A stretch of 64,000 nucleotides of DNA from Hymenopellis radicata (Eukaryota; Basidiomycota; Agaricomycetes; Agaricales; Physalacriaceae). Position 1 is the first letter of the stretch. Every line of letters begins with the position of its first letter. This document shows, in pieces, positions 1 through 44,998 of the stretch. The stretch covers positions 1 through 64,000 of the forward strand of contig JADNRX010000183.1 in NCBI GenBank assembly GCA_015501595.1, read 5' to 3'. The notes beneath the pieces were generated by a model that saw nothing but the letters and a program-made list of their open reading frames with translations, searched no databases and had not been told where the DNA came from. Both the position numbers and the translations under genes were made by a program.

Positions 1-68
1 TCCGTTTGGGGGAGCGGAGGAGGCAGGCGATGAGCCCACATAAACGTATCCAGTTTGTGGCGGCGCTG

Positions 69-4180: not shown

Positions 4181-6436
4181 TTAAACAAGGGGAACGTACA
4201 TCTCAACATCGCCCTTCTCCAACCGATAGTCTCGCCCGCCATTCGCGCGATGGACGTTCTCGCGCTTCTGATACAAGAAGAGACCGATTGCCGTCACACA
4301 TAATGAAGCAGCCATAGCAAGATTGAAAGAATTCCCCTTGTGATATCCGGTTCCAGCATCGGTCGCGACATACGCCCAGACACCGGCGATCGAACCGATC
4401 CCGCCAATTCCAGTGACGACAGCGCCCACCATCGCTCGCAGAGTATCGGGAGACGCGTTAGCAGCTGCCCATCCAAGAACGACAGGACCATTGATCTAGA
4501 AGCAGTTTAAGCGTCGAGCAGTATTAACAGTATCGACGTACAAATCCCCCCGTCATGTTGAGGAAGCACGCGGCGTATCTGGCCTTTGCCGACGAGGCAT
4601 CCGTGGATATCCAGATAGAATCTAGAGAGGGTAATCTCTTTATCGACGTTGTGATATTGGTAGCAACTGCCGCACGTACATCCAACAATCGTGAGAAGAC
4701 CTCCAGACAAACTGAAGGGCCAGTGAACACGGAATCGAATGCAAGCTATAGTTACTAGCAACGCAACGGCGCCCGCAGTACTTCACCACCAATGAGTTGT
4801 CTGAAAGGACTCGGAGAACAGAAAGGCGTACACGTAAATGGGGACCACTAGAAGTTGAATCCGTATGGTGGATGCGTCTGGGTAATTGGTCTTAAGAATA
4901 GAGGGCCTTTCGAGGTGATATTAGTTCGTTGTAATCGACAGCGCGTCCCAAGGCACGTACAAGAAGATTCCCAACCCTTGCACTGAGCAGTTGTCAACCT
5001 AACGTTCAACGTACTTAGTTAAATCTAACGCCACAGGGTAGAGAACGCCGCACAATATAAAGCCAGCAACAGGCAATGGTGGTCACGTCGAATAAACCGC
5101 GCTTCACCAGTCTACCGTTAATCTCCTCCTTCGTGTCCTTGATCTGAAAAAGAACTTAGCAGGCCTCATGTAACGATTGGGAGCAGACGCACAGCAGGTT
5201 GATCGGCATACAGCCTAGCCATGGCTAGCTGTCTCTCTTCTTCATTGAAGAGCCTCGTATGTTCTGGGTGGGTCGGGAAGATGAAAAAGAGAAGTAAACC
5301 GAAGCCCGTAGTGATAATACCCTCCACAAGGAAAATATTCTCCCACGACTTCCGGCTTCCAATGTGATCAACGCTGAGAAGACCGGCCGCGAGGAGACCA
5401 CCGACTTGGAAGGAAATTTTGTAAGAAAACGGTGGATATTTGCAAGAAATTGAATGGGCGTACATCCACCTGCACAACCAGCTGCTACTAACATAAAACA
5501 CCCAACACGGCTAGTGAGCTCGTGTCGCCGATAATAACGCGTAAGCAGATAACTAGAAAAGCTATCAGGACTGACATTGTCGTAATGTGGTGTATAGATT
5601 CAAGCACACCTGAGACCAGGCATAGTGATAGCCTCCGACATTCCTAACACGATGCGGGTCGCGTAGAATCCACCACGATCTGTGCTCATACTGAGTAATC
5701 ACGCCCGAATCCAGTAACAAGACTTCAAGGACAGACCGTGAATGAACGCGGTGCAGAGCGTGACGATACCGAATAAGACAATTCTGGATATAGGCGTTAA
5801 GTCGGGCGGGAGGATTGACCGACAGAATACTTCAAACGTACGATAACGGCACAAGCCAGAAGCCCACGCGCTTGATGAGCAGCGCGAATGGTATCTCGCA
5901 TATCAGGTACATGAGGTAGAACTGACTTGGGATCAAGGCGAGGGTGGCTATTCTGCGAAGGAGGACATACCAGAGACGTTCCAATGTTGACTAGACATAG
6001 TGTTAACCGACTGGCAAGAGCGAAGAATGTGGGATAATGGCGCACAATCATAGGTGTGAAGTCCAAGGTCAGCGACGAGGCCCGCAGAGCGTGCATTTCC
6101 GATGTTCTGTTCGTCGATTATAGTCAAGTCGGTCTAGTAGGGAAGACATGACAAGAACATACACCGCGCTAGAATGGGGTCAGCAAGTACTGACGCTCAA
6201 GAGGACGATACGAACGTCAAGAAACACGAAAGTGTAACAAAGCGTCGCGACAGGAAGAAGCCTGAAGAAGTCGGTTAATGAGAATCTGCGCAGAGTGTTG
6301 CGCCGGTCACTCACAGCAAGTCCAGTTTCCTACGCAGCTTCGCCTCAGCCACAGGATCAATCTTATATGTCGGATCGACCTGGTACGTCGTCACCGACAA
6401 ATCTGACGCCTTCTCCTTGAGCGACGAATGGTCCAT
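4181..6436 (-). CDS. MFS permease, allantoate/vitamin-permease-like
   Basis: The start MDHSSLKEKASDLS at 6436 is a short cytosolic N terminus followed by LLPVATLCYTFVFLD, the first membrane segment. Later exons give NIGNARSAGLVADLGLH, FYLMYLICEIPFALLIKR, a GGLLAAGLL segment, IFLVEGIITTGFGLLLFFI and INGPVVLGWAAANASPDT, then a tail with YQKRENVHRANGGRDYRLEK. These are signatures of the anion:cation symporter branch of the major facilitator superfamily (Dal5/Tna1-like), which imports small organic anions or vitamins across the plasma membrane. Many short introns separate the exons. I could not resolve all boundaries (for example 5850-6060 and 4760-5100), and one or more frame breaks may exist. 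The substrate is unknown. Confidence 0.65.
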
Positions 6437-7697
6437 GGCGGTTGATAGACAAGACACAGAATGGGGAAAACGCGTCCTTTTTTTAAGGGCGGTCTTGGAA
6501 CCTTATCACCATTTGACAGCATAGGTCACGATAAGTCCTGAGAGATAAGAGAACAAAACCGCGGCCGCGCGTGAGGGCACTAGTCAGCGCTAATGTATCA
6601 AATAAGAAGCCAATCAAGTCGAAGAGCGAAGAAATGCGCCCAAGTCAGGAATCCTAGCTCTGGCGTGGCGGTTGAGCCTGGTTGAGAGTAAGTACTTGAG
6701 TCCTGGCCTGCGCACTGTGCACACTGTGGAAGTTGGAAGGACGAATGTGATTGGTTGGAAAGGTAGGTGAATCATGTGACGGGAGGCACACCGATCGCGG
6801 TCTTCCGTTTTTGGATCCTTCCTTTTCCGGAACGACTCACATTTCGGGTTTTCGACTACTCCAACCTCCAGTGCACGCATAAGGCATTGGGCCTACCCTT
6901 CATTGCGCTTAGCAATGGCTTGTCATCTGGACACTAGGAAGTCGGATTCGTGCTGTTTCTGGTACAAGAAGAATGCGGGAAGACTCACCATTGGTTCATC
7001 AGGCCAAACTTTGACTTTTGTTCCACAACGGCCCGCACCCTATCACGAAAAGCCCGGTCTTCTCGTCATGCAAAAATAGGCCCTTAGGAAAGCCTCTTAC
7101 ACCTCTGGGGTAGTATGAAGTGTGAGTTCAACTGGATTCTGGCATGACTTGATGATCAGGGTCGCAGAGGCTCTGTCGATCAATCGATCAACCCAACCAT
7201 CCTCTTTTCACAACTTCACTCGCAACCACCATCTCTGCAGTCATCCATCTGCTACCGATTACATGTATGATCATCTGAATCCGTTCTCACCGATGCCCGT
7301 ATGCCCGTTTTTCAGACCGTGGTCTTGCATACCGCGTTCAGGGCTTGTAAGCATACTCCATACTTAGTAGTTGACGCGCTAATAAGCTCAAGTTACCTAG
7401 GTGTAAAGTCACCTTCTCCTCACACCTTCGTCGCCCTTTAAGATGGCTTCGTATCCCGGTCCTCTTATCTTACTCTGGGGAAGTCACTGGAACCACACCA
7501 CCATCTCTGATGCGTACCACAGTACCTGACTGTCTATTTATTCTCCTCGTCCTTTGATGCTTTAGTGTGTCGAAACACGAAACATATGGAGTAACCTCTG
7601 TTCAAACTGAGCCTCTACTTTTCAAACTCCATTTTACGTTAATCATATAACACCCCCAACGGTTTTAGCATCGTCCTCTCCCACCCCCCAGGCCGTC
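6437..7697. promoter_or_regulatory. Divergent intergenic region
   Basis: This 1.26 kb stretch separates the start of the MFS gene (minus) from the O-methyltransferase (plus), so it should contain both promoters. I see no gene, no repeat and no obvious operator-like palindrome. Just before the methyltransferase the plus strand becomes C/T-rich, a common fungal core-promoter feature. Confidence 0.4.
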
Positions 7698-9179
7698 ATG
7701 TCCACAGAAGTCGACACTCTGCTCCACCTCAAAACTCTCCTGTCCTCTGCAATAGACACGGTCGTCGCAGAGAAGACCGCTTCGCCTTCGTCGCCGCCTT
7801 CCCTCCTCCAACACACCGCGCGCCAAACCGCAATCTCTGCGGCTGGTGCGCTGCTCGCGCTCCTACACGAACCAGGAGAATGGGTCATGGAAGTCGCCGC
7901 ACAGGTAACCGCTTCTTTCGCGCTTAATCCTCAGCCGATGGACTCAAGCTTGCTTCTCAGTATCTCGAATCACGAGCTTTGCACGCGGTGTCTCTTGCCA
8001 AGATTCCGGAAATCATCCACGACGCCGGTGGTGAGCTCGACATCGAAACCATCGCCGACAGAGCGGGATACGACGCGGATAAGTGCGGTTAGTTATTGAA
8101 TGCACCGTCCCGGGATAGCGCGCTGATTGCGCCTAGCGAGAATTATGCGTCAGCTGGTAGCATCGCAAATCTTCAAGAAGACGTCTCAAGATCCAGAACG
8201 CTTCGCGAATAACGCGATCAGCCAGTCGATGGTACGAAACACTCCATTGGAGGATTATGTCGACATGTAGTAAGTGTGTGCCGTCATGCTCTTGCGATCA
8301 CACGAGTTTTGAACATGTCAACAGTGCGAATGAATGGTATGCAGGGTCAAACAATATCCTAAAGTGTATGCGGGACAACTCCACCGACATCGGAACGTCG
8401 CCCTTGGCGAGAGATACAATCTTCAACGACGGCCAGAGTACATGGTGGCAGTACAATGACAGACATCCAGCACGTCACGATGTCTTTGCTAACGCTATGG
8501 GTAAGTGTCGTGTATCCCGTCCAGTTGGTAGCGTACTTACTACCGAAGCTGGCGCGACCATCGCCACGAACTGGGACAATCATCGCAGACTATCCATGGT
8601 CCCGCCACCAGCACATCGTGGACGTCGGAGGCGGAATAGGCAAGCTGAGCCTCGCCATCCGCGACAAGTTCCCACACACGCGCATCACGATACAGGACCG
8701 CGAATCCGTCATCGAACAAGCGCGCGTTGTGTGGTCCGAGAAGAACACAGAAGGCGTCGACTTCCAGGTCCACGACTTCTTCGCTCCCAATCCGGCCGTC
8801 GGCAAAGACGCCTATGCCCTCCGGCACATTGCGCACGACTGGGACGATGCGTCCTGCATCAAGATCTTCTCGGAACTGAAGAAGGCCCTAGCTCCCACCT
8901 CCCGCGTTCTAATTTTGGAAGCGCTCCTGGGCGAGACTGGGTACTCTGAGCGATATATCCATATGAAGAATCTGAACATGATGAACTTGATGTATGTTCA
9001 CCCCTTTCCCCCCACTTTGGTTGAACTCCACTGATTGTGCTGTTGTACTTAGCAATGGCAAAGAAAGGACTGCTGACGAAGTGAAACGCATTGTAAACGC
9101 GGCGGGACTCCAGGTCGTGAAGATATGGACGTGTAGAGGCTCGATGAGTGTCATGGAGTGTGCACTAGAAAGCGCTTAG
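7698..9179 (+). CDS. SAM-dependent O-methyltransferase (COMT-like)
   Basis: The N-terminal exon (MSTEVDTLLHLKTLLSSAID) and following exons form a helical dimerisation domain. It contains HAVSLAKIPEIIHDAG and a winged-helix part (ETIADRAGYDADK). Then comes the Rossmann core with the SAM motif VDVGGGIGKLS and IQDRESVIEQA. The usual catalytic region reads HIAHDWDDASCIKIFSELKKAL, with the His that acts as base in plant and fungal COMT-type enzymes. The last exon is spliced near 8994 and 9054 and ends MECALESA. At about 8490-8560 the intron that starts GTAAGTGTCG cannot be joined in frame to the core with a normal-length intron, so a one-base break is likely. Such enzymes methylate phenols or polyketides. 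Here it sits beside an amino-acid oxidase; the substrate is unknown. Confidence 0.75.
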
Positions 9180-22453: not shown

Positions 22454-23639
22454 TCGACGCCGCTAGGTGAGCCGCTACATAGTCGTTATATTTTTGGTAG
22501 GGAATACTTGGGTGGCCTGGCTCGCATCACCGGTAGGATGCTGTACTCCAAGTTCATCAATACAAGTGTTGGCGACAGATAGGAACAACTGACCGTTCCA
22601 TAGACAAAAAAGTTGCGAAAGATTTGATGAGTACAGACCGATTGTTGAACACCAGAACTGTGCTATTGACGAACAGCATGAGGACGATCCGGCGCCGTTT
22701 GGACGACGATGTAACGCCCCCCAAACCCGTTCTGCTTGATCAAGATCGCCGAGTCCCCAAGCTCTTCTGCAGTCAGGTGCGCATCAATGAACAGCGTTAT
22801 AGACTGTAGAAAAAACGTCATCGTATCGTAAAACATACCTCAGCTGTGTTTCCTATGTCCTTGGAACCGCTCCTTTGCGCGCACAGGCCACATATGAGAC
22901 ATATGATATTGTGCTTCCATTCGGTTCTTTGAGGCGGTTGACGTATCGGTGGGACTTGACGCGGCTTTCGCTCACTGTACCGGGCTTTCGCATGGATGCT
23001 ATCTTGCCTTACCGGCCGCGATGCAGCCCGCCTTCGAGTTCTGGTACATCGTAGTACCCGCACGGCGGGACGCGTCTTATTGTGCCAAAGTAAGTCGGTC
23101 TCGCGGTTGTCAATGTCTGAGAGTACAATAGCCGGCGTACGACGCAAGGCTGTCAGTGTCAAGAGACAAGATGCTCAGTTAGGGTCGCCGACGTGGCTCG
23201 GTTATACCCGTAGGCTCTCTTTCCCGCACCGTCATCAGTCATGAACCTACTCTGTGGTGTTTTGATTTCCTGTGAGGCTGCAATCTTTTTGCTTACCTTT
23301 GCTAGCGCGCCCGACGCGTAGTGAAGATCGTGGTTTCCTTATGCGGAGTGAAATGTCGCATTTACTGCATCCCGCCAGGTGCGTTGTTACTCACTCTTTA
23401 TCTTCGTGTACTGACTTACTGCTTCGCGCCAGTATTTCTGTCGTCACCCGCCCTTATTCACTTATAGCATACGTGAACCGTGTACCCTACGAGAATGTCG
23501 GCTCATGGCTACCCTCGTCGTCTATTTCGCTCTTCAGATTGGGACCTTTCTAGGATTTGACGCGGCTTTCGCTCGCTGTATGGGGCAAAGCAGCAGGCGC
23601 AGCCATATCTAACTCACCATCAACCTGAGCACGGACTGC

Positions 23640-24080
23640 GACCTGTTCCACTCGAGGCGCGTTGCTTAGCGGTTCCGCGTCCTATTGATTGTGTTGCTGT
23701 TCTTTTTTGTTTTGTTTTTTGTATTGATTCCATGCCTTGACAGCGTCCACTGCGATCTCTCCCTCAGGCTGTACACTCGAGGCGCATCGCTTAACGGCAG
23801 CGCGCCTTTGTCGATCTTGAGGCAACGAATTGTTTTGGAATGTGTTCTCAGTCGAAGAACTTATCACCTTGCGTTTCCTGATACATAGTATGTTCTCCAC
23901 GACTCGGGAATTCCCTAGACATGCTCAACTCTGGCTCTTTCCTGATGGTCTTTCTCCAATGATCGCTAGGTGGTAACCTTCGCACGCCGGTGTATCCTAG
24001 CAGATGCATTGGCTCTGGGAATGTTGAGCGGAATCGTTTTATGCTTGTCGCTCAGCGTCCGCATCATGTAATCGTTTTGC
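23640..24080 (+). repeat. Direct repeat, copy 1
   Basis: This diverged block has the ordered landmarks CACTCGAGGCG, GTATTGATTCCATGCC, CCTCAGG(C/A)TGTACACTCG, CGCACGCCGGTGTATCC and GCTCAGCGTCCGCATCATG. The same landmarks occur in the same order at 24890-25290. Confidence 0.6.
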
Positions 24081-24207
24081 TTTTCTGACTTCTATGTTGC
24101 TCTGATCTTGATGACTCGCGACAGAGCCTCTGTCAGTTGGTTAGATAAATTCAAATTGGGATTCACGAGGCCCTCTTGTGGACATCAGTTCGCCTTGGTC
24201 AAGACAT

Positions 24208-24270
24208 GTGGCTTAGTGGTAGCGCGTCCTTTCATTTAGGTGTCTTGCTGTTTTTTGATATAGATTCTGG
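24208..24270 (+). repeat. tRNA-like pol III promoter remnant (SINE-like)
   Basis: TGGCTTAGTGG at 24209 matches the A-box consensus TRGCNNAGYNGG. About 50 bases later is AGATTCTGGTCC, a weak B-box-like string. Related A-box-like strings occur near 23661, 23787, 24487, 24918 and 25042. Those near 23661 and 24918 are followed 50-60 bases later by GTATTGATTCC, an 8 of 11 match to the B box. No full tRNA cloverleaf was found. Confidence 0.4.
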
Positions 24271-24889
24271 TCCAATACTGACACAGTCCCAACCGAAGTG
24301 TCGGGAGAGCAGCCTGGCATGAATGTCAACACGTGCTTGGACTTGTTGTTGAAATCATATACTTAGTGGCGTGTCGGCAGCAAGATCCTCAGTGACGGTC
24401 GTCGGCGTACTCGGAAATACCTGGAGGCTCTTTCCCCGCAACGTCCACCGTAAACCTGCTCCGGACTGTAGCCTGCCATGCCGATGTGGCTTAGTGGTCC
24501 CATCCGGTGTTTGGGCTGAGATTGTACCGTTCACCTTTTTATCGGACTTGAGGCGGCTTTCGCCAAGCTTTCGCTCACTGTACCGGGCAGCAGGCGTGTG
24601 ACTAAACGTTTTCGCATGGATGGTATCTTGCTTTCTAGGTTTTCTCTCTCTAACGTGGATTTGTCTGCCCGCGGACCTGGAACTACGTACACCTTGGCAA
24701 TTGCTTCTCCTTCGGTGATCAACTCATCGCTAGTCACAGGCGTATGCCTCATCGGTATGCCTGCAAGTGAATGCTCGGCTTTGTTTTTTCTGTTTCCTGG
24801 GTCGTCGATTTGTCTTCTGTCGTATGAGATACGGTATTAACCTGGAACTATAAGGCATGGTAATTGCTTTAGTGCCATGCCATTCCACC

Positions 24890-25290
24890 AAATCTAAGCG
24901 GTTCCACTCGGTGCGCATCGCTTAGCGGTTTCGCGTGCTGTAATATTCACTCTGTTCTCAGTGTTTTTTTGTATTGATTCCATGCCTCTCACTGCGACGT
25001 GGGATTATCTCAGCTCCCTCAGGATGTACACTCGAGGCGTATCGCTTAGCGGTAGCGCGTCTTCACCTGGGATGTAGGCCAATTGTTTTGGATTGCGTTT
25101 TCAGTGTCAACCGTCGAAGAACTGCATTTGATGAGCCCTGCGATGGCCTGGCTCTTCCCTTCAAGTTTCTCTAGGTACTACTCTTCGCACGCCGGTGTAT
25201 CCTAGCGGATGCATTGGCCTTGTCGGAACAACTTGAATGAATCATTTTATGCTTGTCGCTCAGCGTCCGCATCATGTAATCCCATCACGT
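24890..25290 (+). repeat. Direct repeat, copy 2
   Basis: Second copy of the 23640-24080 block, about 1.25 kb away in the same orientation. It is diverged by substitutions and indels. It includes an A-box-like TCGCTTAGCGGTAGCGC near 25042. Confidence 0.6.
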
Positions 25291-25645: not shown

Positions 25646-26110
25646 CTACTTCCCGACGAGATCAGAATATGGTTCTTCGTAGTTCTCTGGACCGGCGCGC
25701 TTGGTCAAGTCGGAGTACGGCTCTTCATAATTCTCTGGACCGGCACGCTTGGTCAAGTCGGAATAGGGCTCTTCGTAGTTCTCTGGACCGGCGCGCTTGG
25801 TCAAGTCGGAATAGGGCTCTTCGTAGTTCTCTGGACCGGCGCGCTTGGTCAAGTCGGAGTACGGCTCTTCATAATTCTCTGGACCGGCACGCTTGGTCAA
25901 GTCGGAATAGGGCTCTTCGTAGTTCTCTGGACCGGCGCGCTTCGTCAAGTCAGAATACGGCTCTTCGTAGTTTTCTGGACCGGCGCGCTTATCCATAGCT
26001 AAAAAACGACGTTAGCATTTACGCCATTCCAGTAGGATGGTCTGCTTACGAAGCGCGGCGACGGCAGAAACGAGGAGAACTAACGATGCGAAAACAGCTG
26101 TGAAGCGCAT
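25646..26110 (-). CDS. Repeat-containing, Kex2-processed RiPP precursor (dikaritin-like)
   Basis: Two exons, 26110-26050 and 25998-25646, around a 51-base intron (GTAAGC..TTTTAG), give 137 residues. Exon 1 is a clean signal peptide (MRFTAVFASLVLLVSAVAAL). Exon 2 has a short linker (PMD), then seven copies of a 16-residue unit: the dibasic pair KR followed by AGPENYEEPYSDLT. Only the last copy differs (DLVGK at the stop). Each KR is a site for Kex2 in the late Golgi, so seven identical 14-residue acidic peptides, each with two Tyr, would be released. This matches fungal dikaritin precursors such as that for ustiloxin: signal peptide, KR-flanked repeats and Tyr-containing cores. The UstYa-type gene at 28.3 kb supports the call. 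It has no CAAX end, so it is not a basidiomycete pheromone. Other readings are a secreted effector or signalling peptide. The mature product and bioactivity are unknown. Confidence 0.85.
25655..25990 (-). repeat. 48-bp coding tandem repeat, 7 units
   Basis: Seven head-to-tail 48-base units make up nearly all of exon 2 of the precursor gene. In coding order the DNA types are Z-Y-X-Y-Y-X and a variant of Y. Units 2, 4 and 5 are identical, and units 3 and 6 are identical. X and Y differ at several positions (for example AAT TAT versus AAC TAC), all synonymous. Only the final Thr to Val change alters the peptide. Confidence 0.95.
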
Positions 26111-27036
26111 GACTGTTACACCTTCAGGTCGTTAAGGCTCTAGATGGATGGGTACGTCTCTTATACTTTTGGCGAGGAGATCTATCAGGCCGTGAAACAT
26201 TCTCTCATTCTCATCGCGTCCTGTGAAGCCCTTATGGGCGCTACATACTTCTCGGACATGTTCTATTCTTACAACAGGTAAGAATACTTTCCTCAGCCTC
26301 CCTTAAAGCTGAATGGCATTTGATGTAGGGTTATTTCATATCCGTGCTAACGATCCACTCAGCGCCACTCATGTTCGTATTTGCACTTCTCCCTCCCAAT
26401 GTGGAGTCCGAACGACGGAAGGAACAGCATTTTTGGTGCTGAAAGCCTACCTCGAGTGCGCTTTCCTCGGTTTCCGTTTCTACCCACCGAAAACTCCATC
26501 AAGTAACATCAACGGACCGAACCTGCGAAAGGCCTAGTGGTGAAACGTCGTGACCATTCAAGCGATCTGGCGAGCCGCAGGTACATTCACTTTTTTCGCA
26601 ACAGCAATTCATTCCTGAGCGCTGATCCTTCCCCCAGCGTAAAATAACAAGAACTCTGTGTGGTCAGCGTGGTACTAAGTCTACCGTTTGAATTTCGACA
26701 GGACCAGAACAGTGAACGGGAAGTCACTCTTGGAGGTTGGATTGTGGCGCTTCAAGTTGAGGACAAGTCCTGACTGCCCGCATGGGGCCGTGAGTTGTCG
26801 CGAGACATATCATTCAACATCAAAATTGCGACAACGTTTGGACAACCTCTCACTCTCACCGTTGATGCCGCCTTCAATCGATGAATGGGACGATTCTGTG
26901 TTGCGTGTAGATCCTATAGATACGTGACAGCACTTAGTGGGGTATTTGTTCACGCCGAGGCTACACACATCACTCAGATGAAGGTGTACAGATTGCAATG
27001 TATATTTATTGGGCGGTCACTACAGAAATACTTCAA
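26111..27036. promoter_or_regulatory. Upstream region of the precursor gene
   Basis: About 0.9 kb between the precursor start and the 3' end of the next minus-strand gene. Read on the minus strand, AGTATAAGAG at about 26167-26158 lies roughly 50 bases before the ATG and is a likely TATA element. The short open frames here show no family features. Confidence 0.45.
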
Positions 27037-28028
27037 TCACGCCAACTCAATGAGCTCAAATCCTGTGAATGACGCAATTTCAATCACCGTGAAGGTTACA
27101 GAACGCAAACACGTACCCAGCGCAGGATCGGAGAACACCTGATCAAACTCGAGACGGCAGGCCTTGCAGGCAATCTCCAACGTGATGGTGCGGCGGTCGA
27201 TGCACTCGAATAGAGGGGTCGGACTCTTGAGCTCTTTTCCGTCACTGTGGAACAATTGACGCTGGACGTCGTAATCCGTGAAATTCACGGTCCCAAGCAA
27301 AGACTGACGCGTGGGACGCGTATTCCAGCTCAGCGACGGAAGGTTTGAGTCGGAGGGATAATCCACGTTCCAAACCTCGATCTCCGTCACGTCGCCTTCT
27401 GCAGAATACGACTTGCCGCCTTGAATCAATTTCTCCAGTGGCGAGACCCATCCCGAGATATAGCATCTGGTCCAGCTACTATTGAACCGCCATTGATAGA
27501 TCATCGAGTCCTACAATGAACGTTTAGAAGTCGGTAGGGTAAAGGACACGTAAGGCTTCACCGATGGGCTAAGAACGACATGAGACCCAGCAGTGTACGT
27601 CGTATCGGGCTCTTCTGCATTCACACGGGTCATCGAAGCTGGAAACCACATCTTTCCGCCTGAAGATTGATGAGAGTCTGCGAAAGCTTCAGAGCGAAGA
27701 ACGCACTGGTTGGGTGAAGCGTCTTCGAATTGTGTCGGATGATCGCCCTACCAGCATCGAGGTTCTTATTCAAGTCCCCGATAGCGAGACCAGAAACGAC
27801 CTCCATCGTGCTCGGGATGCGCTGAACAGAGGGAGCAGTCAAAACGCTGAGATGGAATGCTCCGGCGGCCATGATAGCAAGCATGGCGATGAGACTAGCG
27901 AGAAGAAGGCTATCGAAGCGAAAGCCTTCGCGATCATGAGAGACCTGCGGTACAGAGGTCTCCTTGTACTCGTCAGACTCATAGTCTTCAACGGAACTAG
28001 TAGTGAGAAGTCGCGTGTACTCTGCCAT
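27037..28028 (-). CDS. Type II membrane protein, But2-C-terminal-like
   Basis: Four exons fit exactly in phase: 28028-27707, 27659-27562, 27510-27117 and 27062-27037, giving 279 residues with introns of 47-54 bases. The N terminus (MAEYTRLLTTSS) is cytosolic, followed by one membrane helix (SLLLASLIAMLAIMAAGAF). The lumenal domain contains SDSMIYQWRFNSSWTRCYIS, SAEGDVTEIEVWNV, LSWNTRPTRQSLLGTV and a Cys pair in LEIACKACRLEFDQVF. It ends GFELIELA. From memory it resembles an Agaricomycete family annotated with a But2 C-terminal-like domain. Topology and start (xxYxxLL, then one helix) are like UstYa proteins, but the HxxHC motifs are absent. It is divergent to the UstYa gene, 317 bases away, and may act in the same pathway; this is inference. 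Confidence 0.7.
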
Positions 28029-28345
28029 CGAGGGTTGTGGGGTGGGGAAGCAAGAAACTTGAGATACACAGCCAGTGTAGTCGCAAGAATAGCTAGATCA
28101 TGTCCCTGGGGGATCCGTAATAACGGAGAAAGTGGGGACATCTGGGAAGCGGCAAACCCTTTGGAGCAGCTACGAGCGCTGTCCGGGCGTGCATGGGGAG
28201 CTAAATTTGCAGACCTAGGTGACCGAGGATCCCCGTTCCTCCTTCGCGTTTCACAATTACTGATAGTGGCTGAGTACTGCGCCCTTCTCTTCGTCAAATT
28301 CATGTCCTTTATACTTGGAGAAGGGCCATTGGAAGGAGATCAGAC
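28029..28345. promoter_or_regulatory. Bidirectional promoter of the But2-like and UstYa-like genes
   Basis: 317 bases between two divergent starts. TTTATACTTGG at about 28308 is a TATA-like element about 38 bases before the UstYa ATG. Shared control of the two genes is likely from the spacing but not shown. Confidence 0.5.
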
Positions 28346-29113
28346 ATGGTTCAACTCCTCCCCCGTAACCCCTTGCTTGTGGCTTACACCGGACTCCTCT
28401 TGTCCATCGCGTTAAACTTATCTGCTGTCTATGTTTTCCGTTATCGTCGTGAAACCTGCCAAAGCATCCTCGAGCTGAAGGAAGGAGACGACAGTCATTT
28501 CAGTAAGCTACACTGGGTATTGAATGAAGGGACGTGCTTACTGAGTTTTTTTGAAGGCTACATCGGAGACGATTATCCGCACGAACTGCCTATACATCTT
28601 CCAACGGTCGGGATGAAGGTTGAGAACAGCGAGCGCTTTGGACTGTCGGACTTCTACGCGTGGGGTGACTGGCGAACGACCGATATGTTCCCAGCAAGCA
28701 ACGGCTTCATCAAGTTGGGACCGAACGGTAAGGGGAAACAGTACCCAGCAAACAGTTGTGCTGATAACCATGTTCCTAGGTAGAAAATTCGGTATGAGAG
28801 CTCAGCGGTCGAGGAGAAGGTATTACTGACGTTCAGTCTAGGAATCGCGATGTTCCACCAAATGCACTGCCTGCAGAAGATTCGGGATGCCATCGTCCAG
28901 GGCGACGCGGGTCATCACACGCGACACTGCTTGAATCTGCTCAGGCAGACAGTTCTTTGCGCCAGCGATACGACGCTAGACCCCATGATAAACAAGCATA
29001 GCATAGACGGCCTGGGTATTGTTCATGTGTGTCGAGACTGGGAGACAGTGTTCGATTTTGTTACTGAGAACCAGCTGAAGTACCTGAACACAAGCGAAGG
29101 ATGGAATGGGTAG
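28346..29113 (+). CDS. UstYa-family (DUF3328) oxidase
   Basis: Four exons: 28346-28502, 28557-28727, a 12-base microexon 28780-28791 and 28842-29113, with introns of 50-54 bases. All phases agree, giving 203 residues. After a short N terminus there is one membrane anchor (LVAYTGLLLSIALNLSAVYV). YIGDDYPHELPIHLP and LGPNGRKFG are family landmarks. Both diagnostic motifs are intact: FHQMHCLQKIRDA (HQxHC) and HHTRHCLNLLRQ (HxxHC), followed by LCASDTTLDP and HVCRDWETVFDF. UstYa proteins are membrane-bound secretory-pathway oxidases that crosslink or cyclise Tyr-containing core peptides of ustiloxin, phomopsin and asperipin. Lying about 2.2 kb from the KR-repeat precursor gene, it is the best candidate to modify that peptide. 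The reaction is inferred. Confidence 0.88.
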
Positions 29114-29563
29114 TCTGTATAGTCTTACATGAAATCGAATTTTTATGGTCCTGCGTTAAGTCGTCGCGTTACGGACATTGACATGGCCGTCCGTTGTTGA
29201 GTGTCGGCACCGGTCCGACGACCGCGCCTTAAGTTCTATTTTGCCTCGATTCGCGAACGTCGTGGCGTGCTCTTCCGGGCTCGTCGCGGCGGTTGTCCGT
29301 AAATGGATGCTGGTTTCCGTGACAGGACCAGTGTTCAAAACCCACCACTGTCCCGAGACGCGAGATTCGCAAGTGGCGTTCAAACCGTCAATGGCAGTGG
29401 TGCTCTGCAGCGCGTGACTGGACACACGTGTGGTGCAGAACTCGGCGATTGGAGTGACAATCGCTGGGATGTCATCCTTCTTCTTCTTCGACATTATCAA
29501 GAACGAGAATGTCATATAACGGCTTATAACTATACATGTAGACTACCAATATCATATCAAAAT
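29114..29563. other. Intergenic between convergent genes
   Basis: 450 bases between the UstYa gene end and the dynamin gene end. I see no gene or repeat. Confidence 0.4.
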
Positions 29564-32300
29564 TCAAGACGAATACATGAGCTCCCGATAAGCGGTCTGG
29601 AGACGTTCCAACTTCTTCGTCAGTTCCTCACGACGATCAGCCATCTGGGGACTCTCTTGAGCGAGTTCTCTGCAGATCTCTTGTCCCTTCGCCCCGTGGA
29701 TACCAAGACGCTCATACAGCGTGACCAACAGACCTCGATCGAGTCCTTGGACGAGATCGTAGTCGATGGCCAACGGAATATTGTCGATATAACGCTTGTA
29801 CGCGACTAGAATGTATTCAGAGAATGAACATAGAAGAGTAAAACGCTGACCTTGGAAGTACGCACGAACATCGGCCATTATCTCCAGTGCATGTTCCATT
29901 TCATCATGAGGAAGGAGTCCGCCGAGATCCGCCGCCTTGACACCAGAAATGCCGATGCGTGCACAATAGGTCAGAATCGTGCTGACGTCGCCGTTTGTAT
30001 TACTGTAAATTGTCCGTATTCGCCGCTTGCGCGCATTTCGGGATACGGGAGGCACATACCTCGCCAGGACTGTGGCAACACTAGAATGCTCTGTCTGTTG
30101 CCGTTGCGTCTTATAATCATTCAGGAACTTGTGCTTGTAGTCGCCGAGATAATGCGTGTTCAGTGTATACGGACGATCCTCCAATTTGACCAACCAGTCA
30201 ATCTTGTCTTCGGTAGCTTCAAGATGCAGTTTGAGGAATTCGTGTATGTAAAGACTGTGCAACATGATCAGCAAATGTACGAGGTAAGTGCACCAACGAT
30301 GAGTTACCGAACTTTCTGTTCGAGAAGCCTTTGCCCGAAGGATCCGAAATGTTTCGTGACTATCTGGTCCATTTCATGACCAAGCATGGCATACACCTCT
30401 CGACACAGCGCCTTCGCAGGAGCATGCCATTTGGCAACGAATCTCGAGATGTATGCTTGCTTTACGACGAATGGAAAGTTGCCTGGCAACTCTCGAGTCC
30501 GAGCACTGTCGAGCAACAGTTAACAATTATGACTGGAACCTGAACGAGGTGAGCTCACTGGAGTGCACGAGCATGAACCTCTTCGACATAGATGAGGTCA
30601 GACTCTTGCGCGTCTGTTGCACTTTCTTCACCCGAGAGAAAAGTCGGGCGCTTCCAGGCACAGGAGCTAGCCTGTGTTTCAGAGAACGGTCTGAACGCGG
30701 GAGCTGTGCGGCGAATGGCCAATTTGAATTGTTCTTGAGCAAGACGAACTCTCTGCATGATGCCTTCTTCGTCGGAAACGCCTTCAACGTGCGTAGATAC
30801 GTCGCGCGTGAATTCGGACAGGAGAGACGAGACTTCCTGGAGAGGATTTTCGGAGGGAGGCTTTGGCATGACGCAGATCTGGTGAAGGGTTTTCTCGATG
30901 GCGCGTTCCATCTCGGACCTGATATCAGGAAGTCTGAGAGTTTTTGGTCAATGAAAGAGAAGCAAAGCGAAACAAAGAACAAGCCTTTTTGAAATGAGAT
31001 CAGAAAGGATATGGCTGAGCCGCTCCACGAGATTAGAAGTTCGCAAGTAGCGTTGGTAAACAGAGTCCAGACCAGCCCATGGATCGACAGTTGAGAAAAA
31101 GTCGTTCTCTCGTTGTCGCGCTTCGCTCCAAGTAATACCGTTCTTGATATCGGTAGACGAAGGCTGCTTGACGCAGTACCAGTTGTTTTCGAGCGCTTCT
31201 TTTTCACCACGGATGAACGCCACCCACGCGTTTTCCTCGCCGGACGGGATGCGATCTGGTTTCGTGAGGACACCTAGAGCAATGTCCGATATTGGTCACC
31301 TCACTACGACAAAATAAGTGGGGACTAACCGATAGTGCGCTTTCCTAAAGGGTCGTGCATCTTCGCCAAATGATGGGCACCTTGGTTTTCAAAATCGGCT
31401 GAGTAACTTGTTAGCCAAGGAGCCGACCACACATTCGAAACTCACTCTCGCAAGCCACCGTTAGAAGGATCAAACAGCTGGGCTTGGAGATGTAGGATTC
31501 CACAAGACTTTTGACTAGATTAATATCGCCGTCGTTTCCAGCGCTACCGGTGCTGGCGATGAGACCTACAAACAAGTCAGCCCCGGAGCATCGTAGACGC
31601 GAGCTGGCAGTAGACATACCGGGCAAGTCGCAGAAAGACAAGTCAGCGACGCCAGGTCCGCTGATCTGGAGGGAAACGAAGTTGGCAGAGAACGAGAGCT
31701 GGTTCTCGATGAGATCTTCGTCCTCGCCGTCCAGAAATTCGGATGGGCGACGTTTCGGGTTCAAAATCGCGCGCTGAGCGCGCCTGAGGCGCTCCTCGAC
31801 GTCTTCCTTGTCGTATATAATGTCTCCAAACTGTTCGTTCCTAGCCGTCCCGAGAAGTTGGCCGTTAGGATCCTTGATGAAACGTAACGAGACGATGCAT
31901 TTCCAGGCGTCGGTCGAGTGAGCGAGGCGACACTCTGTCGGGCAGCTATAGTGCAAAGTCAGAGTGCGATAGGAATCTTCAGTAACCGTGACGCATTACC
32001 GAGTGCAAGTCCCAGCAGCTCGTGGTAGGGTAATACCCGAGATGGACTCGATGAGGGAAGATTTTCCGGCGCTTTGAGACCCGATAACAGCAATTTGAGG
32101 TAGGTCGATATCAACTTGCGCTCTGTGATGCGACATCGTCAGCGCCTGTGACACACATATGAGAAGACTTTCGCGTACCCTGTGCTATGAAGACGATTAA
32201 TGAGATCTAACAGAATGCGACGCCGCCCCGAAAGGTCGGGATTGGCCAGGCCAACTCCTCCTTCGTCGAAAGGGCTCAGAGACGACGTTGTGTGAGACAT
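29564..32300 (-). CDS. Dynamin-family large GTPase (Mx-like)
   Basis: The start [15 protein letters not shown] at 32300 leads into the GTPase domain. It has G1 P-loop GSQSAGKSS near 32070, G3 DLPG near 31617 and G4 TKPD near 31260. Family stretches [16 protein letters not shown] and [20 protein letters not shown] are present. The stalk exons follow ([40 protein letters not shown]). The C-terminal GED reads MADVRAYFQ, then [20 protein letters not shown] and [20 protein letters not shown], ending near 29567. Introns are numerous and short. No PH or Pro-rich domain is seen, so it is closer to the soluble Mx/Vps1-like group common in Agaricomycetes. A membrane-remodelling role is expected from the family; the exact compartment is unknown. 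Confidence 0.85.
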
Positions 32301-32842
32301 GAATGAAGATAAGGGAGATCGCGTTGTTCATCGTCAGAAACGATGATATATATACTTCAAAATCGTGGGCGCTTAGACAAGATTAAGCGCCTTGAGAATT
32401 GCGGGAAAGGACACGAGGTTGATTATCTGCTAGATAGGCGATGTAGGTTGCAATGGAGAGGTGGCGCGGCAACAGTCAAGGTGCCGAATATCCAGCGAAT
32501 ATCTTATTCGGAATGGACGGTATGCTCAGTCACTTCTGGCGTCTATTGAATCTCCTTCGGCTAATGACAGAAAAAAGGTTAGTTTTTGAGTTGCAGGAAT
32601 GATTGACGACGTTACATTGATACATTGGGTAAGGCGCCAGAGTTCCTGACGGCTTCCAAGCACAACGGGAGCGCATTGGACTCGGAGAAGCACCGTACAT
32701 CATCATGTAGTCCGGGAGTAGATTTTAAGATAGTTCCAGGAGATTAAATTCAATACACCGGGGAGTGACGATCCAGATTGCCTCCCAAGAACACATTGTA
32801 GTGAACAAGGTAGAACCTAAAAATTTCTAACCACGATCCGAG
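32301..32842. other. Intergenic, dynamin promoter side
   Basis: About 540 bases, AT-rich next to 32300. The mariner-type insertion begins at its far end. No gene was seen. Confidence 0.4.
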
Positions 32843-33866
32843 TACAGTCGTTTCATAAATCCTTGCCCGGCGATGCCAAACACGCCAAACAATTCGATTA
32901 ATTCGAAACATTCAATAAAATAGAGTAATTCGTAGGGGACAAATACACTACTCTGAAACTAGTAAGGATGTATACCAAGGTGCCATACATGTATACGGAC
33001 CAGTAGGAAGCAGTGTGGAGGGCAGAACAAGGCGCAAGGCCGGTGAAGAGAGTCGGCGGCAAGGACAAGCAGAATCAGTCTGGACCGATTGCACGCTTAT
33101 ACATTGGCCTTCCAATGCCTCAAGGTCACTTGGATATGTCATGGGAGAGCCTGCGATTGAGTACGCGCCGCGTACAGCAATGATCCCCCTCATGGTAAAT
33201 CGTCGTGCACCGGCAGCCATCGCGCGGCCAAGGGACCCAGTCGCGGGGCCCCGGACATCCATTTTATTGCGTAGAGGTGCAATGGTTGATTCAATGGCAG
33301 CAGAGCGAGAATCATGGGAGTCGCGGGGAGGTGGGGATGGAGCTGGGACGGAGCGGATGCCTCTGGTGCATGGTTTCACAGATCCTTAGGGAAGGACTGA
33401 GGAAGGCAGTCGACACAAATTGGTTGATGATAAATAGTATTTTGAAGGGGGTTCAGACCAATGCCGGGCGACGTCCTGGAAGATCATGATGAGACGGGGG
33501 AGTATTGCGTACTCGCTACGCACCTAAAACGTTCCAAAGCCAGTGCCCTCTTATCCAGCAACCTCCAGGAGATTTCATGAATGGTTCTAGTGCATCTAAT
33601 TCCGCCTGCCCGTCATTGGGCGCCGGTATATCAATCCTTGATGCCAAAAGCGAGTCCAAACGTTGGAGGTCAAATCAGCTGCTGGGAGTCAAATTCAAGC
33701 ATTCGTGCTCAACACCGAGGTCGTATAGCGCGTTAGCGCATGTGGCAGCGCGTCTGAAGCTGGTCTGAGCTGTGGAGGATTCATTCTATTTTATTGAATT
33801 TTTCGAATTAATCGAATTGTTTGGCGTGTTTGGCATCGCCGGGCAAGGATTTATGAAACGACTGTA
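32843..33866. mobile_element. Tc1/mariner-type non-autonomous element (MITE)
   Basis: The terminal inverted repeats are 80 bases long (32845-32924 and 33785-33864) with a single mismatch at 32909. Both ends begin CAGTCGTTTCATAAATCC and are flanked by TA on each side (32843-32844 and 33865-33866), the target duplication typical of Tc1/mariner. The element proper is 1020 bases. Open frames inside (33015-33389 plus, 32948-33379 minus) show no DDE/D transposase features. The near-perfect repeats suggest recent insertion. Confidence 0.85.
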
Positions 33867-34528
33867 GGTGAAGGCACGATGCTTCTCACAGTCATGGTCG
33901 CAGTTAAAAAAGGACAAAATTGAATTGGCGCAAGATTACTCACACGGCACGTGACAGACGCGTTCCGAATTTGCGACCCGAACTCACCTGCATTGCTCTC
34001 AAAGGCTCGCTCCAGATGTGTTGTGAAGCGCTGTTGACTTGTCCTATCTTGATCTTGCCAAAATAGTATGGTGGCGCTAACGGCAAGCTCAAGACTGACC
34101 TCGGGGAGAAGCCCGATTCAGAATACGCCCCCTTTACAGAACCGATTTCTGCGATGACGCCGGGGGGCATACTCTTCTAAGACTAGAGTACGTACTAGAA
34201 CCAGGAGAAATGCGAGGCTCACATATGTCGTATGTAAGTGAACTTGCCCATGTGCCATCCTATCTCATTTCTTCATTAGCTTCGAGCGTTACTCATTCAT
34301 TGAACCTGGTGAGGATCAGATGACAAGCCTCCTTCGGAGCTGGCTTGGGCTCCTGTCGTTCGAGGCTATTGTGGCTGTTGAGTACTAAGAAGCTATTAAT
34401 GGATGCAGGTCCGACGGAGCTTTGTTGGTATATCAACTTCGTCCGTCGGACATGTCCTGAACTAGTCGTTCGCGAGCCCATAAAGGCTCGCGGGCGATGA
34501 TGCTCCTGATGTACAACCTTGGAGCGCC
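33867..34528. other. Intergenic upstream of a P450
   Basis: About 660 bases without a recognised gene. The string AAAGGCTCGCGGGCG and its neighbours near 34490 contain a small GC palindrome, but no specific regulatory element was identified. Confidence 0.35.
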
Positions 34529-36777
34529 ATGTATCCCCCCTTCACTTTATTTTTCTTGCACTAGCAACTGTCGTCGCGTATCAGATCCTTCGATTTACGA
34601 AGTTCTTGTACCGAGAGTTCACCTCTCCTCTTTATTACCTTCCTGGTCCCCGGAGCGGCAGTCTCTTATTCGGTAGCTTCCAAGACATCTGGTCAAAGGT
34701 TCTATGAAAGCACCCATGCGTTCACCTTTGTTCTGACGAATCTCCTAGGACATCGGAGCAACAGAAACTCAGTGGCTACGGGAGTATGGGAGGACTTTCT
34801 CGTTCAGCGGATTCTTTGGTGCAAATCGACTTCTGACAACCGACACTAAAGCCATCTCCCACATCCTCCTAAATTCCTACCGTTACGCCAAGCCTGGGTT
34901 TTCACGAGCCGCTCTTATTGCGACTACTGGTCGAGGTGAGCGCCGCCAGCATCGAACTGTCATATTCTCGTCGCTGAATGTGTTCCAGGTCTTCTCACTG
35001 TCGAAGACGATATACATCGACAACAGGTGATTTCATCGCCGTCTTAAGTGAAAACGTATCATCTAAATTCCATTCATTTCAGCGTCGCATCTTGGTAAGT
35101 CTAAAATGCGCTGTATTGCCTACTGACTCTCATCTGGGGCCGTAGAATCCTGCATTTGGACCTGCTCAAATTCGCGACCTTACTGAAGTCTTTGTGGCTA
35201 AATCGAACCAGGTTCTCGATGACCCTATAAGATTGAACACTGACTCACGCACGCCCTCAGCTTCGTGACATATGGGCGAATTTGTGCGACGGTCGCCCGA
35301 CTCGCATCAACGTCATTCCGTGGCATGCTCGAACGACATTGGATATCATCGGGCTCGCTGGTGCGGACAGTGACTCCTGGCTTCAATGAGTTAGCTCACT
35401 GTTTTTATTTAGGTTTCGACTACGGGTTTGACTCGCTTCAGTCCTCGGAAAACCCAAGAAAACTTCACAAGCAACTCTTGTACTTTTTTCAGAAGAATTC
35501 CACCGTAAGACCATCTTCCATGAGACGCAGGATGGCATGGCTGGCAATGGTACTTCCCGTGAAAGTAAGTCCTCGATGTTGTTGGCGTGCACTAAGCTTT
35601 AGCTGTCATTTCAGGTCTTGACATATATTCAACGGCGCCAGTTCCAAGCGGGTCCTACCATGGAGCGCATTGGAAGAAGCATCTTAGATGCCGCGAAATC
35701 TGAGGCTTCGGGTGCCGAGAAAGCATTGGATAATGGACGGTCGATCTTTTCTTTGCTTGCGAAAGCAAACTTGTCTTTAACTGAGAAAGGGGAGCAGCGA
35801 ATGAGTGACGATGATGTTCTTGCCCGTAAGTTGATTTTGTCGAGCTGGCCGAAATCTAAATGTTGTTACAGAGGTTCCCACATTTCTCGTTGCGGGGCAT
35901 GAAACTACGAGGTTTGGTTTTCTTCATTTCCTAGTAATTGACCTGTATCTCAAGCGTTTCCCCAGTACTGCTCTGTCCTGGACATTATTCGCGCTCTCTC
36001 AGCAGCCCGACGTGCAACAAAAGCTTCGAGATGAACTGTTCACTCTCCAGACTGAGACACCCACAATGGACGACTTGAACGCTCTTCCGTATCTGGATAT
36101 GGTGATACGCGAGAGTCTTAGACTTTACGCTCCCGTACCGACTACTATTCGTGTTGCGCGACAAGACGACGTTATCCCACTGAGCCAGCCTTACAAGGAC
36201 AGCTGCGGGGTTTGGCATGATTCGGTCGAGTGCGCCGCCACACTGCGTTGTTTGGGTGATTAAATTGACGTCGGATTCTTCCAGGCTCAAGAAAGGCCAG
36301 ACTGTGCTCATTCCTATATCTCATATCAACTGCGACGAGGAGCTTTGGGGTCCCGACGCGTTGCTCTTCCGGTAAGCATGCCGAGACCTCATCATCATTC
36401 TACGCTTCTGCTTAGCCTCCTTTCTAGACCAGAACGATGGGAAGCGTTACCAGCAGCCGTGACTTCCATACCAGGCGTTTGGGGTAACATGCTAACCTTT
36501 TTTTGGCGGCGTGCACTCGTGTATCGGATATCGATTTTCGATTGTAGAGTGAGTACTATGTACTTACTTCTCGCTGACTAAAGCTGACAATTACTCAAGG
36601 ATGAAGGCTCTCCTTTTCTCTCTGCTGCGTGCCTTCGAATTTGAACTAGCGGTTCCTGTGGAAGACGTAGCCAAATCATTCACACCCGTCATACGTCCAG
36701 TATTACGAAGCGAGCCGGACGCTGGCTGTCAGCTACCTATGATCGTAAAGCCTCTCGAACGTGTGTATGCGTTGTAA
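34529..36777 (+). CDS. Cytochrome P450 (two frame breaks)
   Basis: The N-terminal membrane anchor ([19 protein letters not shown]) is followed by [14 protein letters not shown] and [18 protein letters not shown]. Later come the I-helix AGHETTS, the K-helix [13 protein letters not shown] (ExxR), PERWE and a heme loop whose Cys sits in SCIGYR. There are about 12 short introns. Two one-base breaks are visible. The only suitable ATG (34529) is separated from the frame by a run of six C (34535-34540), where one more C would keep it open. A run of seven T (36498-36504) shifts the frame just before the heme loop. It is related to, but clearly diverged from, the two P450s of the inverted duplication. 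It is either a pseudogene or has sequencing errors. The substrate is unknown; ER-bound oxidation is expected. Confidence 0.75.
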
Positions 36778-42751: not shown

Positions 42752-44998
42752 TTAAACATGGACCGGTCTGATGACAATAGGCAGCTGGTTTCCCGCGGCA
42801 GCGTTGTTCCTCAGGTAGGGCCGCCGCACGACAGATGTCTTCTTCGCGATATCTTCATGTGGCACAGCAAGCTCGACCTCGAAAGCGCGTATCAAAGTGA
42901 ACACGAGGGCTTTAGTCCTGTTGTCTCTATGCGTCAGAAAGCGCCACAGACACGTGCAGTAGAACTCACTCGGCCAGAGAGAATCGGTAGCCTATGCAGG
43001 CGCGAGGTCCACCAAGGAAAGTCATGATATTACCCCACACGCCTGGAATGGCAGATACCGCCTCTGGAGCCTTCTCCCATCGTTCTGGTCTTACATCACA
43101 GCACCGTCAGTTTCAGCCTCGGCGATGAAAGACAAGGAAGGCTCTCACTTGAACTCTGCAGCGTCCTCGCCCCATATGCTGGGATCGGTGTTCATAATAT
43201 GAAGCGGAATGATAATAGAGTCGCCTTTCTTGATGCTGCAATTGATAATCAGTCAGTTCTGGGGGTTGAGCGAGAACCAGCAATGTGTTACCTGATGGAA
43301 TCACGGACGACACCACCTTTGTCCGTGAACGGCTTGCTGGTCGGAATCACATCGTCCTTGCCCGCTACTCGAACGCTGTTGGGAACAGGGGTATGTATGC
43401 GCAGAGTTTCGCGAACGACCATGTCAAGGTACGGAAGTGCATTGAGCTCGTCCAGAGAAGGCGTCTCGGTAGCCACCGAGAGTAGTTCTTCCCGCAACTT
43501 CTTCTGAACCTCGGGTTGCTTAGTGATAGCGTAGAGTAGCCAAGTGACTGCCGAAGCCGTCGTTTCATGGCCAGCAACGAGGAACGTCGGACCTCTGTGC
43601 ACGAAGACCTATCAGCGACAGAGAGGGATCGATGGCGAGCACGTACGAGCAATAACATCTTCGTCCGACATTCGTTGGCTTTCTGGAATGTCAGTCGACA
43701 TATTTGCTCTTAGCAGTAACGAGAGTAGGTCGCGAGACCGCCCATTGTTCTCTTTCTCGCCACCGGTTGCCTCCAGGAAGGTTCTGCTTTCGTTGAGAAG
43801 GTTGTAACCAATCCGCGACATTGTAGCCTGTGCAGCACGCATCGTTGCCCCTTGAATTGTTGGCTGATAAAGGAGTTAATGGACAAGCATGTAGACCACA
43901 CGTAGTAAACTTACCACAAGACGCAGTATGGGCATGTATCCTTGCATAATCCTAAACAAACTCGAGGATCCGGCAGAAAATATCTTGGAAAAGGCAACGT
44001 TTAACTCGTTGGGAACGCCGTTGTCATTCAAGGAGTCGAACGTGTAGTTGAAGCCTGTGTTCGCGTCATAGCATCAGATCTCGGGAATAAAAATACAAGC
44101 GTGCTTACCGGTAAGACCGATGATGTCTAATGTAACTCTGTTGAGCCAGGAAAGAGCGTCGGTGCGAAGGGCACCGTCTGGGTTCATGGCACATTCAGCC
44201 GCCAAGATGTCCCGGAGCTACACGGGCCTTTAGTTCATGAATTCAGCACTGAACAAAACTGACTTGAATCGATTTGTCCAAGAATGTTGTGGTAAGCTCT
44301 CGCATGTGAGACGGGGCAAAGGCCGGGCTCTAGAGCGACACATGAGGGGACTCAATAAGTCTTCCTGTGGGCGGTATTCACCATGACTTTGCGCTGTGGG
44401 ATTCAATTCAATGTCGTATAGAAACGCGAAGAGACTGGAGCGTACCTGCTGCTTGTGTTGGTGACCCTCAACAATGAGAATACCTGCGCCGATGATCATG
44501 AGAAGGAGTGTTCCCAAGTTTTGAAAGGCAGCGCACTGACCTGGGCCAATCATTCGTGCAATGTTGTAACGCGCCCCGTCGGGTTTTGGATAGTCATACG
44601 CATTATGAAGAATATGAGAAATAGCCTTGGTGTCCGTGGTCAAAAGACGGCGCGACTGTCTCACACTCAGTACATCGTCAAGCAGTGGGAACTCCTTTCA
44701 CACGTACTCCCAAGAAACCCGTAATGGTAATCACCGAGCCGTATTGTTTGACCCATTGATTGAAGAGCGTGCCAGGCTCCTGAAGGACTCTGAGATTAGA
44801 TCACTCGACGACGTCTGAGCTACTCACCGCACCCCGAATTTGCTGCATGTTGCCCCAAAAAAAACTGGGCATGTCCGGTCCTCGGAGGCGCTTGAGTGGG
44901 CTAGAATGATACTGGTACGCTGCCTGTGCCAATTTGACGGCAGCCACCACGAGTAGGGCGCTTATTAGCGCAGACAAGACCTGTAGAACGACGTGCAT
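42752..44998 (-). CDS. Cytochrome P450, left copy
   Basis: It starts [20 protein letters not shown] (membrane anchor) and continues with [36 protein letters not shown], then [20 protein letters not shown]. The I-helix [15 protein letters not shown]-helix [13 protein letters not shown] (ExxR) and heme loop [17 protein letters not shown] are all intact. It ends [12 protein letters not shown]. Introns are about 45-60 bases, more than ten of them, at the same places as in the right copy. ER-anchored monooxygenase of a fungal secondary-metabolism type; substrate unknown. A TATAAAT element lies 45-51 bases upstream. No break was found that cannot be spliced. Confidence 0.85.

Follow-up and report, generated by a model that had tools for sequence, protein, structure and literature searches.

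A probable dikaritin-type peptide locus with a But2-like gene in the mushroom Hymenopellis radicata

Introduction

UstYa genes are many in mushrooms (Pleurotus has 16; PMC8893723), yet reviews place the characterized dikaritins in ascomycetes (PMC9233826, PMC10512285, PMC12048977), and the five dikaritins counted in a 2022 review stem from filamentous fungi or ascomycetes (PMC10512285). Can a mushroom locus be of the dikaritin type, i.e. direct the formation of such a ribosomally synthesized and post-translationally modified peptide (RiPP)? The question is raised by a stretch of 64,000 nucleotides from Hymenopellis radicata (contig JADNRX010000183.1, positions 1 to 64,000; in the following, the window), in which the start codons of a gene for a Kex2-processed repeat precursor and of a gene for a UstYa-family oxidase lie 2,236 bp apart, in agreement with the spacing of about 2.2 kb given in an initial annotation. 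With a probability of roughly three in four, we read this as a mushroom RiPP locus, compact and of the dikaritin type, in which UstYa oxidizes a Tyr-containing core. A cross-link in the product and a role for the But2-like protein encoded between the two genes are what we infer beyond this.

The DUF3328/UstYa protein, with two HxxHC motifs, is regarded as the class-defining enzyme of dikaritins in a review that also tells of an older five-gene definition (tyrosinase, methyltransferase, several DUF3328 proteins, peptidase or transporter) and of functional clusters reported later that miss some of these genes, e.g. that of asperipin-2a without a peptidase (PMC12048977). The asperipin-2a cluster has one DUF3328 gene (PMC7329392). 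Desaturation of residues in phomopsin and hydroxylation or chlorination in cyclochlorotine have also been assigned to UstYa proteins (PMC10512285, PMC12048977). A survey of Kex2-processed repeat proteins (KEPs) lists 7878 of them. DUF3328 neighbors accompany 1647 of the 5372 ascomycete KEPs and 103 of the 1680 from basidiomycetes, the latter figure referring to a distance of up to 15 genes; Tyr-containing repeats are commoner in KEPs with such a neighbor (65.6% vs 38.2%) (Umemura 2020, PMC7329392). For the related Oudemansiella raphanipes, antiSMASH has returned five regions of the fungal-RiPP-like class, plus one in combination with terpene (PMC9961838).

The precursor and its repeated core

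25646..26110, minus strand: gene for the Kex2-processed repeat precursor, 137 aa, two exons (26110-26050 and 25998-25646, the latter with the stop codon)
25999..26049, minus strand: precursor intron of 51 nt, GTAAGC...TTTTTTAG, between the signal peptide and the first core

The intron has GT...AG borders and its removal leaves the reading frame intact. The encoded protein starts with the signal-peptide-like MRFTAVFASLVLLVSAVAAL (judged by eye, without a predictor), followed by PMDKR and seven cores. Each core begins with AGP directly behind a KR pair; cores 1 to 6 read AGPENYEEPYSDLT and are each followed by KR, while core 7 reads AGPENYEEPYSDLVGK, lacks a following KR and closes the protein. 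The initial annotation had described seven identical KR-separated cores; the spliced gene, the signal-peptide-like start and the number of cores stand, and the seventh core departs from that description. On the DNA level, the tandem repeat has a unit of 48 nt in 6.8 copies (score 540). Nine of the 13 codon positions whose residues are common to all seven copies differ among these copies, and because all changes are silent we regard the repeat as a maintained coding repeat.

A signal peptide and similar repeats between dibasic sites make the protein a KEP. The Ste13 XA/XP dipeptide that precedes each core in alpha-type pheromone precursors is not present before the window cores. Cycloamanides of the amatoxin type derive from a cytosolic precursor without a signal peptide and a borosin precursor carries its own methyltransferase; the H. 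radicata precursor, with signal peptide and dibasic repeats and without a methyltransferase domain, agrees with neither, and no Pfam domain of any kind reached its cut-off. A single copy of the gene was found in the 75 Mb assembly of H. radicata. It seems to be unannotated in public proteins, because a protein search with the precursor as query returned three proteins, the fungus's own not among them.

That search covered 5.8 billion proteins with the single sequence and was followed by a second one starting from an alignment. The three relatives returned by the former are from Mycena alexandri (P0001, E 1.5e-10), Stereum hirsutum (9.2e-3) and Mycena sp. CBHHK59/15 (0.1). The latter added two metagenome proteins, P0048 and P0049 (E 4.7e-10 and 2.5e-8); its query contained the first three relatives (P0001-P0003), whose scores there are therefore given by construction. 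The weak single-sequence E-values of two relatives appear to be made up for by their common layout, in which cores carrying one and the same motif are repeated with dibasic or Arg spacers.

This motif, GPxxYExxYS, is common to the window core and the precursors of the five relatives, with few exceptions. When the 14 copies from the relatives were aligned by hand, near-identical copies included, G2, E7, Y10 and S11 were present in all of them, P3 in 13 and Y6 in 11. The three copies without Y6 all belong to P0049 and each keeps Tyr10-Ser11, whereas Y6 is retained in each of the 11 copies from the other four relatives, as well as in all seven window copies. An X-P dipeptide (SP, AP, NP or KP) precedes 11 of the 14 relatives' cores, only some directly behind a dibasic pair. 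It resembles what is seen in Ste13-trimmed precursors, and trimming would leave cores starting with x-G-P (in one case G-P, in another x-G-L). The conserved basidiomycete repeat found in another study carries an XSDW motif (PMC6339444). Six core strings were all absent from the paper text of the literature searched (supplements lay outside the search), and the GPxxYExxYS core family seems to be new. The motif allows relatives to be found where the short precursor gene is unannotated, as in H. radicata, and P0049 is useful for telling which core residue gets modified.

The UstYa oxidase

28346..29113, plus strand: UstYa-family oxidase gene, 203 aa, exons 28346-28502, 28557-28727, 28780-28791 and 28842-29113

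Exon borders were obtained by reading the DNA against the public protein P0004 (H. radicata BDZ89DRAFT_1164078, 203 aa). In a 221-aa model that retains one intron, residues 128-208 are recognized by Pfam family PF11807 (57.3 bits; cut-off 25), the motifs HQMHC and HTRHC are both present, and the protein has an N-terminal helix, so that the UstYa gene with HQxHC and HxxHC motifs proposed in the initial annotation is confirmed. A missing DUF3328 hit, which would have spoken against that annotation, is thereby set aside. As a side observation, exactly the four residues of the 12-base exon 28780-28791 are absent from four of 23 aligned proteins (P0012, P0015, P0022, P0025), as if the exon had been missed by annotators.

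Homologues amount to 44 proteins at E <=0.001 among 132 candidates and come from Mycena, Piloderma, Sparassis, Leucogyrophana, Heliocybe, Athelia, Botryobasidium and metagenome sequences. In an alignment of 23 homologues, HQMHC is invariant, as are the end His and the Cys of the second motif, the inner His of which is kept in at least 90%. The aligned homologues are 47-68% identical to the window protein, the paralogues of H. radicata itself 30-41%. A tree was built from 33 rows, namely 12 paralogue frames (several of them long-branched according to a warning of the tool) and 21 of the 23 aligned proteins. One of its branches, with a support of 97/93, places the window UstYa and 20 agaricomycete homologues on one side and the 12 paralogues on the other. 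It thus looks as if the window UstYa belongs to one old Agaricomycetes clade. An AlphaFold model based on the 23 sequences has a mean predicted local distance difference test score (pLDDT) of 50.3, with only the N-terminal helix 9-33 fairly confident, and no solved structure related by sequence was found (four matches, best E 0.084).

Linkage of precursor and UstYa

The H. radicata assembly contains 23 matches to PF11807, counted exon by exon over both haplotypes, on 11 contigs, and the sole such precursor found lies within 2.3 kb of UstYa on one of these. M. alexandri has its precursor P0001 on a contig with a length of 193,758 and its UstYa homologue P0007 on a contig of equal length; because these contigs are equal in size, the two genes probably share one scaffold. 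Relatives that keep the repeat gene without a UstYa neighbor had been named in the initial annotation as a point that would speak against its proposal. This comparison was readable in one of three named species, M. alexandri, which has a UstYa, probably on the same scaffold; the 44 homologues listed include none named for Stereum or Mycena sp. CBHHK59/15, so that these two species weigh in neither direction.

A search for Kex2 repeats near other UstYa genes of the genome gave no convincing precursor in stretches L013-L024, and the same holds when a looser setting was applied and L040-L044 were included; single-core precursors would escape this search. Weak repeat pairs in L015, L021, L022 and L041 appeared at the looser setting with scores of 28-34, compared to 78 for the window gene, and were taken as chance. 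A low-complexity repeat on contig C712 (E 0.006) was rejected as a precursor, several overlapping frames on both strands being repetitive there.

A But2-like gene between the two

27115..28028, minus strand: But2-like protein gene, about 257 aa, three exons modelled from splice signals, 3' end uncertain

This gene was absent from the account of the locus given in the initial annotation. It lies between precursor and UstYa, head to head with the latter at a distance of 317 bp. Its product has, as judged by eye, a hydrophobic (membrane) stretch at the N-terminus. The Pfam profile PF09792 (But2) matches the window copy with E=0.068, i.e. below its cut-off, and a paralogue on contig C967 with E=4.3e-8. 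Over the whole assembly, three matches to PF09792 were obtained, all three lying 0.5 kb or less from a match to UstYa; the two above cut-off are the haplotypes of one locus (L016/L017, 96.2% identity). Further relatives came up on C596, C1015, C767 and C1016 with a profile for which the C500, C967 and C758 proteins had been used; these three match it by construction. Pfam But2 remained below cut-off on the exons from C1015 (E 0.003) and C767 (E 0.0065) and gave no match for C596. The genome searches score best candidates only, so that further distant But2-like genes may exist.

But2-like genes were found on ten contigs, nine of which carry UstYa. The remaining one, C275, represents the other haplotype of C596 and begins just past the place expected for UstYa. 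Conversely, nine of the 11 UstYa contigs bear a But2-like gene, and none was seen on C656 and C951 in the 10 kb examined. Once haplotype pairs are merged, about six loci show the pairing, the gap between the two frames ranging from less than 100 bases (C967, C758) to 2.7 kb (C767, C1016) and mostly staying within 3 kb. Paired places include L013, L015-L019, L021 and L022 besides window positions 27115-28028. The two genes seem to form a standing pair in H. radicata, and this pairing is the most unexpected result of our analysis. In the literature searched, But2 and UstYa co-occur in a single paper, in separate passages and without a link drawn between them; as a partner gene in the context of UstYa, the But2-like gene seems to be new. 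A single But2-like exon folded alone reached a pLDDT of 34.5 and this model was not used.

A second haplotype of the locus

Contig C734 (positions 1-9000; L022) is 95.5-97.4% identical to stretches of window positions 27465-35847, and we interpret it as the locus's second haplotype. There, an insert at least 1.8 kb long and flanked by direct repeats of about 134 bases, in the manner of a mobile element, breaks up the But2-like gene; the contig begins at this point. The last UstYa exon is frameshifted. Ahead of the disruption, six silent differences and one amino-acid-changing difference were counted in 162 triplets, a few intron border bases included. Assembly searches yielded no second-haplotype copy of the precursor, which is either absent or unassembled. 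The second haplotype looks decayed, and it may be that just one of the nuclei has an intact pathway, or the assembly may be in error.

Surrounding genes

29567..32184, minus strand: dynamin-like GTPase gene (GED 43.9 bits; Dynamin_N 22 bits, below cut-off)

We regard the dynamin-like gene as the right-hand border of the locus and not as part of the pathway. A P450 gene (about 34.7-36.4 kb) and an NmrA-like gene (about 37-38 kb) were not adopted as tailoring genes, since the dynamin-like gene intervenes and nothing links them to the locus. The P450 gene (34749-36260) shares a 13-residue string with frames 44233-44697 and 56257-56634, such that copies or remnants of P450-like genes occur repeatedly in the window. 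The stretch at about 23602-25220 is a repeat; contigs C529, C752, C766 and C696 hold many places that resemble it at about 68-81%, and at up to 92% in short pieces.

Discussion

Repeated cores at Kex2 sites behind a signal peptide and a DUF3328/UstYa protein with two HxxHC motifs are features expected of a dikaritin locus and are present here; an oxidatively cross-linked product would be a further one. The dikaritin-like character proposed in the initial annotation is supported by the PF11807 match, the basidiomycete Kex2-repeat precursor and the M. alexandri pair; its Tyr-Tyr macrocycle is weakened by P0049. As a kind, the combination of KEP and DUF3328 gene is already known, because 103 basidiomycete KEPs have such a neighbor in the survey cited above (PMC7329392), and the novelty claimed at first is lowered to that extent. 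Core family, mushroom setting and But2-like partner make the locus a variant worth testing: the defined precursor with its conserved core is a testable substrate for a mushroom UstYa, and the But2-like gene is a second gene to test as its partner.

In the pathway that we propose, the precursor would enter the endoplasmic reticulum via the signal peptide read from its sequence. Kex2 and Kex1 would cut at the sites seen and free cores beginning with x-G-P, with the additional help of a Ste13-type dipeptidase in relatives that have X-P before the core; a kexin P-domain match and a DPPIV_N match are present elsewhere in the H. radicata genome. The membrane-anchored UstYa, with both HxxHC motifs in the lumen, would then oxidize the core, most likely at the invariant Y10, and a side-chain bridge could result for which Y6-Y10 is one candidate. 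A copper-dependent DUF3328 enzyme is reported to make fungal RiPP macrocycles, if we may go by the title of a 2025 paper by Chiang, Ohashi and Tang that PMC12186524 lists among its references. As the genome-wide pairing suggests, the But2-like membrane protein may aid UstYa as a partner or substrate holder, and the finished peptide would be secreted, probably to interact with other organisms. A broader and rather doubtful extension is that UstYa in mushrooms generally operates in the lumen as one half of a two-protein machine, the other half being a membrane-anchored But2-like protein, and that the GPxxYExxYS peptides are the substrates of its old agaricomycete branch, a dikaritin-type family native to Basidiomycota.

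Several observations weigh against a dikaritin-type locus. Only one UstYa was found at the locus, and no tyrosinase, methyltransferase, further DUF3328 protein, peptidase or transporter, as listed in the older five-gene definition, was detected among 35 window open reading frames and three typed products scanned with Pfam; these include 31 of the 58 longest non-overlapping frames, and short exons and the other 27 may hide genes. Linkage of precursor and UstYa is readable in only one of the three named relatives, from contigs of equal size. Twelve other UstYa stretches of H. radicata (5.5-10 kb each) are without a Kex2 repeat gene, and therefore UstYa does not imply a KEP in this fungus; one of the twelve is the second haplotype of the window locus and ends before the precursor, leaving 11 others. 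KEP peptides detected by mass spectrometry in four mushrooms are linear or little modified (Vogt 2022, PMC9769878). Finally, P0049 lacks Y6 in three of three copies, which weakens a Tyr-Tyr macrocycle.

The last point leads to a variant compatible with the dikaritin-type reading, with a probability somewhat below one half that is contained in the weight of that reading: UstYa acts on the core without forming a Tyr6-Tyr10 bridge and instead links Y10 to another residue, hydroxylates the core or introduces a dehydro-residue. Retention of Y10 in P0049, the invariance of E7, Y10 and S11 throughout the relatives and the desaturation, hydroxylation and chlorination reported for other UstYa proteins are in line with this variant, whereas the presence of Y6 in all other copies speaks for the bridge, and P0049 may be a decayed or diverged gene.

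We consider it improbable that the product is a linear unmodified KEP peptide serving in signaling or defense, next to a UstYa and But2-like pair that serves another substrate and is close by coincidence. Such an explanation draws on the low share of basidiomycete KEPs with a DUF3328 neighbor, on the linear or little modified peptides of the four mushrooms and on the 11 UstYa stretches and the cut-off second haplotype that show no KEP. It is countered by the equal-sized contigs of precursor and UstYa in M. alexandri, by a Tyr-centered motif common to precursors of different genera and by the position of the only such precursor found in 75 Mb so close to UstYa. That the KR pairs remain uncut and the intact repeat protein serves in the wall or matrix is hardly credible, no supporting point having been found and the KR ahead of each window core, the X-P dipeptides before most of the relatives' cores and the lack of any Pfam domain over cut-off in the repeat protein all speaking against it.

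Comparison with known systems

The dikaritin-type locus proposed here comes closest to the asperipin-2a type, with which it shares a signal peptide, Kex2-bounded repeated Tyr-containing cores and one DUF3328 gene. It differs in its basidiomycete origin, its GPxxYExxYS core, the But2-like gene in between and the lack of a transporter in the open reading frames scanned. Repeated cores and UstYa-family proteins are also found in the ustiloxin and phomopsin loci, which have two and five UstYa genes, respectively (PMC7329392), compared to one here, and another core; a tyrosinase, methyltransferase or peptidase gene did not appear in the window in the Pfam scans done. Basidiomycete KEPs (PMC6339444, PMC7329392, PMC9769878) follow the same precursor plan, but those detected in mushrooms are linear or little modified (PMC9769878). 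With PF09792 proteins the window copy is connected by a weak match and its C967 paralogue by one above cut-off; what sets the But2-like proteins of H. radicata apart is their N-terminal membrane stretch and the pairing with UstYa.

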